From: Treponema sp.
GTDB taxonomy: Bacteria; Spirochaetota; Spirochaetia; Treponematales; Breznakiellaceae
DNA: 64,000 nucleotides
Direction of reading: 5' to 3'
NCBI GenBank assembly: GCA_031278095.1
Contig: JAITLC010000011.1
Span: 1 to 64,000, forward strand
Positions 49,891-52,512 of this stretch are shown piece after piece. The stretch's first letter is position 1. The number at the start of each line of letters is the position of its first letter. A model generated the notes under the pieces. The model was not told the origin of the DNA and made no database searches. It saw nothing but the letters and a program-made list of their open reading frames with translations. The position numbers and the translations under genes were made by a program.

Positions 49891-52029
49891 CTAATTAACC
49901 GTTGTTTCCGCCGAGAGTGTAAAGTCGGAAGTACCCGAGGGCGGCGTTATGTTGATACTAGCGCCGGAATCAGGTTTGATGAAAAGGAATTTGCTTTCAC
50001 TATCCTTCCTCAGTGCAAATTTTCCACCGGTAATACCAAGGCCGGTAATACTTGTACCTGCGGTTCCCTGGCTGTCATCGATAGTATCGGCACAGATAAT
50101 ACCGTCTCCGATTAACCTGACAAGGCCCTTATTTGCGCTCGTACCTTCTAATACCAGACTGCCTTTTTTCTCCTTCGTTGAAAATACCCCAAGGTCGATA
50201 CGGCACCCGATTATGAGCTCGCTGCCGGCGTTTCCCTGTTTCTGGGTTATTACAGGTAAGACAGTGGCGGAAGGAGATTCGGCACAAAGATAAGCGTCGC
50301 CTGTAGCCGCAATGGAACTTGTGTAAGTGCCGGTACGGGTTATCGTAACATGTCCGGTAATACCCGCGGTCCTCCACATACTAGCCTCGGAGTCGCCGAA
50401 ACTGAATTCCGTCTGCCCTGCGACAACTTTGCCGTAACCAACCATGCGGGTATTACCACCATCATGTCGCAGAATCAGACTACTGTTTACTCCCAGAACC
50501 AAATGGCTTGAAGAATTGAAGCTGAGTGTCGTACCGTCCGGCATGGCGAGACTTGAGTTGTCAGGCACGGCGAATGCATCATCACTGTGATCTCCTTGAA
50601 AACTTAATTTCGTACCGGGGAATGTTCCTGATATCTCTATCGGCTCATTGGTACCGGCGGCCCAGTTGCCAAGTGTTACATAACCATCAAGAATACTTTG
50701 AATCGAATCAAAGTCGATGTTCCAGCCGGCCGCTGCCATTTTTAAGAGGGAGGATACTTTCCCGCCTTCGATTTTTACGTCGTTGCCTGTACCTATGTTA
50801 CTGAACAGGCGGTGGAACTCGTCATCAGCCGGGGAAGCCAGGTTTGCCGTGCGTTTTTCGGAATTGTACCGGTAGGTCAATACTCTGGTACTACCGTCAT
50901 AGTGGATCTTGCTTGAAGGCCCATCATAGATGTGGGAGTTATTGGGTACCTTTGTAGAATCCACATCGCCTGCCGAGGCTTCCATTACATTCCAGCCGTT
51001 AAGCTCCGATGCATTGAAGCTTAACAGCGGTGCGCTTACGGTCAGGCCTTTAACAGCGGAATAATAGCTGCCAATGAGAGCCCTGAAGTAATAGACGCCC
51101 ATGGAAACCGTACTGTTCACCGTGAAGGTTATGGTTGATGTTTCATGATCCCCTTCGGTCGTAAAGGACGGCGTTGAACCGCTTATATCGGCAGGATCGG
51201 GTATTTCCGTTGTTCCGGCGGGATCACTGTACCATTTAATAGTAACAGCACCGGTACTAATGTTATATTTGTTGATCTGGTATGTTGCCGTGCCGCCTGT
51301 CCCTGCAGTAATACTGCCGGACTGGTTCAATACTTCCACCTTCTTCTGGGTAAAAGCCTGGAATGTACCGGTATAGGATATGGTGGTACTTTTCTCATCG
51401 AAACCGATTTTTACCGTGCTGACTTCCGTTGCCATGGAACTCCCGTCCCAGCAGAGGTATACATAGTAGCTGCCGCTGCCTGTCCACAGAGGGGGAGAAC
51501 CGCCTTCTTCCGAATACCGGTAGAGGAGGTAACTTACCCGGCTTGCGGAAATAGTTCCTCCCGAAGGCAAACCTCCGGCCGCGGCAATATCCGAATTACC
51601 GGACAGATCCTGTACCTCCGACAGATATACTGCCAGGGTGCTGTGCCCTCCCGGAAGATCCGTAATGGTTATCGTCTTTTCTATTTCCTGTTCTTTGAAA
51701 ATAATTACCCATTGGGCCGTCAGGGACAGATCTTCATCCTTACTGTAGGAATTTCCCGCGGCATAGGCGTTTCCCGCCCCGTCCTTCCAGTTATCAAATT
51801 TTTTGCCCTCCGGGGCTGTAAACCCTGAGCCGTCCGAGAGCCTGATCGTTTCGCCTTCCCTTTTTGTGACCGGCGCTATTGAGCCTGAACCCTCACCGGG
51901 AGAATAGCTGACGGTGTAAAAAGACGGGGAATTTTCAGGCGTATCCATGGGGCAGGCGCTAAAGAGAACGACCAGCAGTGCTGCCGCAATGCCTGTCCAT
52001 ACCGTTTTAACAATTATATTTCCTTTCAT
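49891..52029 (-). CDS. lipoprotein with InlB-type repeat, surface protein
   Basis: A 712-residue putative surface lipoprotein. The signal sequence (MKGNIIVKTVWTG, then a hydrophobic stretch) ends in LFSAC with Cys26 as the likely lipid anchor. Residues about 37-107 form one InlB B-repeat/Listeria-Bacteroides repeat (YTVSYSPGEGSGS ... LSLTAQW). About 110-335 contain Ig-like strands. The remainder (340-712) is Gly/Ser/Thr-rich, without recognised domains. GGAGG precedes the ATG. The stop TAG lies within a dispersed element. A long G/C homopolymer upstream suggests variable expression. It may be an adhesin or host/particle-contact protein; the role is unknown. Confidence 0.75.
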   Translation of the reverse strand: MKGNIIVKTVWTGIAAALLVVLFSACPMDTPENSPSFYTVSYSPGEGSGSIAPVTKREGETIRLSDGSGFTAPEGKKFDNWKDGAGNAYAAGNSYSKDEDLSLTAQWVIIFKEQEIEKTITITDLPGGHSTLAVYLSEVQDLSGNSDIAAAGGLPSGGTISASRVSYLLYRYSEEGGSPPLWTGSGSYYVYLCWDGSSMATEVSTVKIGFDEKSTTISYTGTFQAFTQKKVEVLNQSGSITAGTGGTATYQINKYNISTGAVTIKWYSDPAGTTEIPDPADISGSTPSFTTEGDHETSTITFTVNSTVSMGVYYFRALIGSYYSAVKGLTVSAPLLSFNASELNGWNVMEASAGDVDSTKVPNNSHIYDGPSSKIHYDGSTRVLTYRYNSEKRTANLASPADDEFHRLFSNIGTGNDVKIEGGKVSSLLKMAAAGWNIDFDSIQSILDGYVTLGNWAAGTNEPIEISGTFPGTKLSFQGDHSDDAFAVPDNSSLAMPDGTTLSFNSSSHLVLGVNSSLILRHDGGNTRMVGYGKVVAGQTEFSFGDSEASMWRTAGITGHVTITRTGTYTSSIAATGDAYLCAESPSATVLPVITQKQGNAGSELIIGCRIDLGVFSTKEKKGSLVLEGTSANKGLVRLIGDGIICADTIDDSQGTAGTSITGLGITGGKFALRKDSESKFLFIKPDSGASINITPPSGTSDFTLSAETTVN

Positions 52030-52061: not shown

Positions 52062-52090
52062 GTTTTTCGGAAACTTAAATTTTCCGAACA
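52062..52090. repeat. degenerate hairpin related to the GAGGCTGTTCC family
   Basis: TTTTTCGGAAACTTAAATTTTCCGAACAAA, divided as TTTTTCGGAAACTT and AAATTTTCCGAACAAA, in the leader of the lipoprotein gene. Confidence 0.5.
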
Positions 52091-52159
52091 AATCTGTCTT
52101 GAGGGAAAGTAAGGAGGAGGGCGGATGACCGGATTATTCTCCGTGTTTGCAGGGAAACT

Positions 52160-52196
52160 ACTATACGCCTTTTTTTTTTTTGGGGGGGGGGGGGGG
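52160..52196 (-). promoter_or_regulatory. T12G15 homopolymer tract next to the lipoprotein promoter
   Basis: The plus strand reads 12 T (52170-52181) then 15 G (52182-52196). On the gene's strand this is C15-A12, followed by GGCG and a -10-like TATAGT (52160-52165), about 130 bp before the ATG. A -35 at standard spacing would fall inside the C-run, so slippage would change the promoter. Flanking bases AAACTA/TAGTTT are inverted. Confidence 0.75.
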
Positions 52197-52209
52197 TAGT
52201 TTGTATTAA

Positions 52210-52512
52210 GAACCTATGCGGTTCCCTTGTAGTATTACAAGGCGCCTGGCAGGAAAGCATGGCGGATAACCTCTTTGAAAACACGCAAGAACTAAAACAG
52301 TCCCCAAACCGGAATATTTTATTTATATGGCATTATTCGGCCCGTGTCAATCCATTTCAGGGTGTCGCCACGAATTCAGAATTCAACCATCGGCCGGCAC
52401 AAACCCGGCAATTCTCAGTTTACCACGAATGTTTGCTTTGACAGCCTTCATTTTTACCCGAATTCTCTTCTGTTCGTATGGTTCGGGTCGTTCGCGGTTA
52501 AAATCTTCCGCC
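52210..52512. other. intergenic region without a supported gene
   Basis: Contains fragments resembling the dispersed elements (CACGAATTCAGAATTC near 52370, TTTACCACGAATG near 52418, TTTACCCGAATTCTC near 52453). The short open frames here have no ribosome sites or protein-like features. Confidence 0.5.

Follow-up and report, generated by a model that had tools for sequence, protein, structure and literature searches.

What does a long homopolymer do upstream of a lipoprotein gene, and at which step of expression would it act? This question is raised by a locus in a window of 64,000 nucleotides (the whole stretch of DNA analysed here), which forms contig 43 in the 3.05-Mb draft assembly of a Treponema species. 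From assembly names, we take this organism and its relatives in the Breznakiellaceae to be termite-gut treponemes. A preliminary description of the window had proposed that a T12G15 tract beside a promoter is a phase-variation switch. We analysed the tract, its counterparts in the same genome and family, and the reading frames that cross them.

The tract and the lipoprotein gene

The tract was present as described: on the plus strand, T12 occupies 52170-52181 and is followed by G15 at 52182-52196. A first-order Markov model gave expectations far below one for the window (0.0009 for G15 or longer and 0.03 for T12 or longer). The tract was also rightly called the only one of its kind in the window, where it is the only G run of at least 9 residues and the runner-up is G8; yet about 30 G/C runs of 12 residues or longer occur in the same genome, some of which, at contig ends, look like sequencing artefacts. 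This is a homopolymer beyond chance at a gene-control position, as in slipped-strand contingency loci. It is internal to the contig and has unique flanks; its run lengths come from a draft assembly and are uncertain by about one base.

49891..52029, minus strand: lipoprotein gene, 712 aa, with a signal peptide carrying a lipobox (..LFSAC..) and a GGAGG Shine-Dalgarno sequence
52170..52181, minus strand: A12 tract (T12 on the plus strand), directly after the C run, a second possible slippage site
52182..52196, minus strand: C15 tract (G15 on the plus strand), predicted slippage site, with TA just before it on the coding strand

Because the lipoprotein gene lies on the minus strand, the order in gene orientation is C15-A12-GGCG-TATAGT. 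The coding strand reads TA-C15-A12-GGCG-TATAGTAGTTTCCC, and 152 nt separate the end of the C run from the ATG.

The lipoprotein (712 aa) had no match in Pfam, a search of named genomes with it returned no relative, and only partial relatives were found elsewhere. The acyl-CoA synthetase gene just upstream was 92-93% identical to genes of two Treponema metagenome assemblies and showed 61-74% identity to many further Treponema and Spirochaetaceae assemblies. The two close relatives carried neither the tract nor the lipoprotein at the corresponding site. Since both are missing there and the lipoprotein has only partial relatives, tract and gene together look like a lineage-specific insertion.

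A family of tracts and the position of the promoter

Runs of at least 12 G were counted on both strands of the source genome; there were 29, where 2-3 (about 2.5) are expected. The family maximum was found in the relative G015, with 135 G/C runs of at least 12, and most genomes of other families in the order had near zero runs of at least 12 G. At most tracts, the strand with the C run was also the coding strand of the next gene, and the next gene along this strand was mostly a lipoprotein gene or an ABC sugar-transporter operon carrying Pfam domains SBP_bac_1, SBP_bac_8 and BPD_transp_1. Next genes in G015 included a glycosyltransferase, among others, as read from the sequence with no domain scan. 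Several tracts of G015 were seen at the 5' ends of glycosyltransferase-like genes (for example at loci L218, L222 and L198), which suggests that surface glycans may be phase-variable in this genome.

Tract lengths were mostly 12-23 and reached 45 across loci. Related loci, each species being represented by one genome, differed in length (C15 at L059 versus C14 at L265; C12, C16 and C19 at L242, L244 and L260). The longest run, C45 at L315 in the single-contig genome G033, precedes a lipoprotein gene, and the leader frame there overlaps the next gene through a GTGA. At L226 and L246, from two genera, the tract was C13 in both, unlike other tracts, and its conserved flanks included the palindrome CTTCTGGCCAGAAG.

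Most tracts had the dinucleotide TA right before the C run on the coding strand, whatever the leader frame; most of those outside the window genome had been chosen for this context. As the leader frame relative to TA varies, TA is not a codon effect. Its presence at most loci led us to consider a mobile element or repeat carrying the tract, which was rejected: beyond close paralogues, the flanks are not otherwise shared. Loss of mismatch repair was likewise rejected as a cause, MutS being present in 59 of 59 genomes. Since tracts with this orientation recur across the genome and the family ahead of genes for surface and transport functions, a slippage switch at the window tract is, from sequence comparison, well supported.

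The preliminary description placed this switch in a promoter, with TATAGT as the -10 element and the -35 inside the run. The minus strand does carry a TATAGT box, at 52165-52160, and the lipoprotein ATG (52029) lies about 130 nt downstream of it. At a spacing of 17 bp, the matching -35 would read CCCCCC at any tract length. The only strong sigma70 promoter, TTGACA-17-TATAAA, was predicted upstream of the tract.

52322..52350, minus strand: predicted sigma70 promoter of the leader/lipoprotein transcript, TTGACA at 52350-52345, 17-nt spacer, TATAAA at 52327-52322

This promoter scored 11.5 of 12.5, and its -35 begins 154 nt upstream of the C run. The tract thus sits neither between nor over the -35 and -10 elements. 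Scores of at least 11 of 12.5 were obtained upstream of the tract at 9 of 28 genus loci (0.000 in shuffles) and downstream at 0 of 27; scores of at least 10.5 were obtained upstream at 8 of 34 replication loci from ten other genera and downstream at 0 of 34. No strong promoter above shuffle level was found between tract and gene at the 27 genus and 34 replication loci. A -10 directly before the C run was considered from TA(N)4TA patterns in genome G014 and dropped, the patterns not being seen in other genomes. What is supported of the original proposal, in light of the tract family, is a homopolymer phase-variation switch before the lipoprotein gene; the promoter mechanism is not supported, the promoter being upstream. 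The leader start codon fell 6-8 nt after the -10 at L048, L242, L265, L310 and L325, which suggests leaderless transcripts at these loci.

Leader reading frames across the tracts

The sequence downstream of the predicted promoter contains an open reading frame that runs through the tract.

52075..52260, minus strand: leader ORF as assembled (C15, A12), ATG at 52260-52258, 61 codons, TAA at 52077-52075, inferred translation MLSCQAPCNTTREPHRFLIQTTPPPPQKKKRRIVVSLQTRRIIRSSALLLTFPQDRFVRKI
52005..52009 (approximate), minus strand: leader stop when the tract is C13, C16 or C19 (predicted ON frame), 23 nt beyond the start of the lipoprotein ATG
52154..52165, minus strand: segment TATAGTAGTTTC, initially taken for the -10; frame d=1 reads TAT AGT AGT TTC = YSSF, frame d=0 reads TAG
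52066..52091, minus strand: inverted repeat TTGTTCGGAAAATTTAAGTTTCCGAA, with the C15-state leader stop inside the loop

The leader ORF has a GAGG Shine-Dalgarno sequence at about 52273-52270, and the proline run of its predicted peptide is encoded by the C15 tract. The frame assembled as C15/A12 ends at 52075, leaving 45 nt to the lipoprotein ATG, and a tract of C14 or C17 would bring a stop 21 nt downstream of the tract. The d=1 frame with the YSSF segment results from C13 or C16; this segment also occurs in open frames of L268, L299 and L325. At other loci, a conserved leader segment, TATAGTAGTTT or TATAGCGTAGTTT, was found in the same place as TATAGT. Its open frame encodes Tyr-Ser-Ser-Phe or Tyr-Ser-Val-Val, with stop codons in the other frames.

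The window locus is among those that match the leader-frame pattern less closely. Coding-sequence phase variation would require a frame running from the tract into that of the lipoprotein, and none does so. The locus showed no exact ATGA overlap, the 23-nt overlap occurring in the C13/C16 frame only, and the chance of having a reaching frame was 0.18. No terminator and no Shine-Dalgarno-sequestering hairpin were found there, so that coupling is the most likely route in the window. A 46-nt stretch in the region of 52066-52091 was 85% identical to the leader region of another genus (L201). The A12 run next to the C run was peculiar to the window locus and absent at other loci. RNA polymerase slippage on A runs is established, and slippage on A12 could blur the leader frames.

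Across the genus loci, one post-tract frame was open to the gene start at 16 of 25, where 5.1 are expected from dinucleotide shuffles. An ATGA stop/start overlap was present at 8 of 25 (1.2 expected), and at 10 of 25 one frame was open and both others met a stop within 45 nt (1.5 expected). Because these measures had been chosen after looking at the first set, they were repeated unchanged on a second set from ten other genera, which comprised 40 tracts, almost all of them newly retrieved, and 15 loci testable for frames. The frame was open to the gene start at 10 of 15 loci (4.25 expected, p about 2e-4), and the ATGA overlap was found at 4 of 15 (0.97 expected, p about 0.006). In the replication set, both remaining frames were closed at 3 of 15 loci (1.17 expected), which was not significant; nor was such closure enriched in genome G014. 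The null is a simple one, made of shuffles, and gene starts were picked by Shine-Dalgarno score. At the level of the family, upstream ORFs often end at or overlap the gene start, as in translationally coupled leaders.

Leader starts with a Shine-Dalgarno sequence or a leaderless context were located upstream at 10 of 26 loci (3.6 expected). Among the 17 leaders with assigned starts, 5 were in the longest frame, near one third, and the tract phases look random. No amino-acid constraint or conservation was found in the leader codons, which is compatible with the leader serving as a ribosome path but does not independently prove its translation.

Of 38 genus loci, 13 had a hairpin resembling an intrinsic terminator (-12 kcal/mol or better) between the tract and the gene, against 6% in shuffles. 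The open leader frame crosses the terminator at L251, L261, L252 and L258. Promoter, purine-rich Shine-Dalgarno sequence, ATG and C16 are all present at L308, in a single-contig 3.9-Mb family genome, where the leader frame runs through the terminator and stops 12 nt before the gene. At L059 and its relative L265, the Shine-Dalgarno sequence is masked by a conserved hairpin. As a general mechanism, Shine-Dalgarno sequestration was unsupported, since it was seen at 5 of 24 loci only.

Proposed mechanism, alternatives and known systems

From the tract, promoter positions, frame statistics, terminators and gene classes, which were read directly from the sequence, we infer length variation, leader translation and an effect on expression. 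The tract is probably a slippage site in a leader ORF, whose length sets the frame, with one frame bringing ribosomes to the lipoprotein start. Transcription would begin at the promoter upstream of the tract and run through the leader ORF. Slipped-strand mispairing would add or remove C residues and thereby shift the leader reading frame. In one frame out of three, the ribosome would remain in an open frame up to, or beyond, the lipoprotein start codon, and the gene would be expressed through translational coupling or reinitiation; where a terminator or ribosome-binding-site hairpin exists, the passing ribosome would disable it. In the other frames, an early stop would leave the gene off or weak. 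For the window, the model predicts that C16 or C13 is ON and that C14 or C17 is OFF, with the C15 of the assembly being intermediate or OFF. Many lipoprotein and ABC-transporter loci of the genome and the family would use the same device. More tentatively, and at somewhat less than even chances, these loci may form a family-wide regulon of poly-C (polyproline-coding) leader ORFs acting as phase-variable attenuators that turn dozens of genes for lipoproteins, sugar transporters and glycans on and off. Ribosome read-through of a terminator, or arrival at an ATGA start codon, would then decide the state of the downstream gene.

Four other explanations were weighed. The tract could belong to an N-terminal extension or to a separate small secreted protein and undergo ordinary coding-sequence phase variation, the lipoprotein being a mere neighbour. 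This has precedents among the loci, as the open frame runs straight into the gene at, for example, L050, L060, L253, L254, L190 and L310, and the glycosyltransferase genes L218 and L222 have coding-sequence tracts. It is nevertheless unlikely for the window, where the long leader frame and the overlapping lipoprotein gene are in different frames and the lipoprotein has its own Shine-Dalgarno sequence and signal peptide; leader peptides free of amino-acid constraint also argue against it, and ATGA overlaps point to coupling. We consider similarly unlikely a promoter-type switch, in which the C run overlaps or spaces the -35 before TATAGT and its length tunes binding of RNA polymerase or an activator. 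TATAGT is where this reading places it, and promoter tracts with such behaviour are documented: the activity of the T. pallidum tpr, tprL and tp0126 promoters varies with the length of their poly-G tracts, and a poly-C tract lies over the -35 of opc (PMC7864442). Against it, the -35 at 17-bp spacing would be the same CCCCCC at any length, none of the 27 genus and 34 replication loci had a promoter above shuffle level between tract and gene, strong ones being upstream, and the conserved post-tract segment behaves like reading-frame sequence. Such a switch also leaves the frame statistics unexplained.

Length effects acting on the RNA only, through small-RNA binding or mRNA structure and with no leader translation, are improbable. 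A homopolymer in a long 5' untranslated region would suit them, and Helicobacter RepG-tlpB is a precedent from H. pylori (PMC8295292), but they do not account for the open frames to the start codon, the ATGA overlaps and the leader starts. Least probable is a sequencing or assembly artefact, from two-colour poly-G tails or misjoins. Exact run lengths are uncertain in a draft genome, and contig ends of the assembly (G000) do include G-rich low-complexity tails like two-colour sequencing artefacts (C54, C56, C95, C125 and C28), while many others stop at genuine-looking C/G runs. The window tract, however, lies inside its contig between unique flanks, the single-contig 3.9-Mb genome shows this arrangement as well (L308, L315 and L317), and TA, promoters and frames are common to the flanks across genera.

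The leader-ORF model, with slippage in a translated leader, predicts a period-3 dependence on tract length. Homopolymer phase variation is known in promoters and coding sequences, mostly of vertebrate pathogens. Throughout this family of insect-gut symbionts, dozens of tracts seem to occupy a third position, namely a translated leader that precedes the gene. If true, surface lipoproteins and sugar uptake would be subject to bet-hedging in the absence of adaptive immunity as a driver, and phage, protist contact or diet may be alternative drivers. Poly-G tracts before other spirochaete genes, including presumed promoter elements, would then merit a check for leader ORFs. A literature search of partial coverage returned no description of phase-variable tracts in such leader ORFs, and the leader-ORF tract would be a variant of homopolymer phase variation for which no published description was found.

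The closest comparison is with the poly-G tracts of T. pallidum (tprE/G/J, tprL and tp0126), where length variation has been demonstrated and tied to expression (PMC7864442). Both are homopolymers upstream of surface-protein genes in spirochaetes of the same order. In T. pallidum, however, the G run lies within the promoter and measures 7-11 at tprL, whereas the runs described here have C on the sense strand, are usually 12-23 residues long with a maximum of 45, and lie downstream of the promoter in a leader ORF. The slippage switches of Neisseria meningitidis opc and porA similarly use poly-C or poly-G tracts (PMC7864442) near a surface-protein gene; these are part of the promoter, unlike the tracts described here, which have no suitably flanking promoter elements. 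In H. pylori, a G-repeat in the mRNA leader of tlpB is read by the small RNA RepG (PMC8295292). There too, a homopolymer in an mRNA leader tunes downstream genes, but by small-RNA pairing in 5' untranslated sequence and gradually rather than with period 3 (PMC8295292). As in classical contingency genes, tract length would set the frame and two thirds of lengths would be off, although it is a leader ORF before the gene that would shift and not usually the gene itself. As in leader-peptide attenuation and coupling, the position of the ribosome on the leader would decide access to the terminator or the start site, with an ATGA overlap; the signal here would be a heritable change of tract length and not amino-acid supply or a drug.
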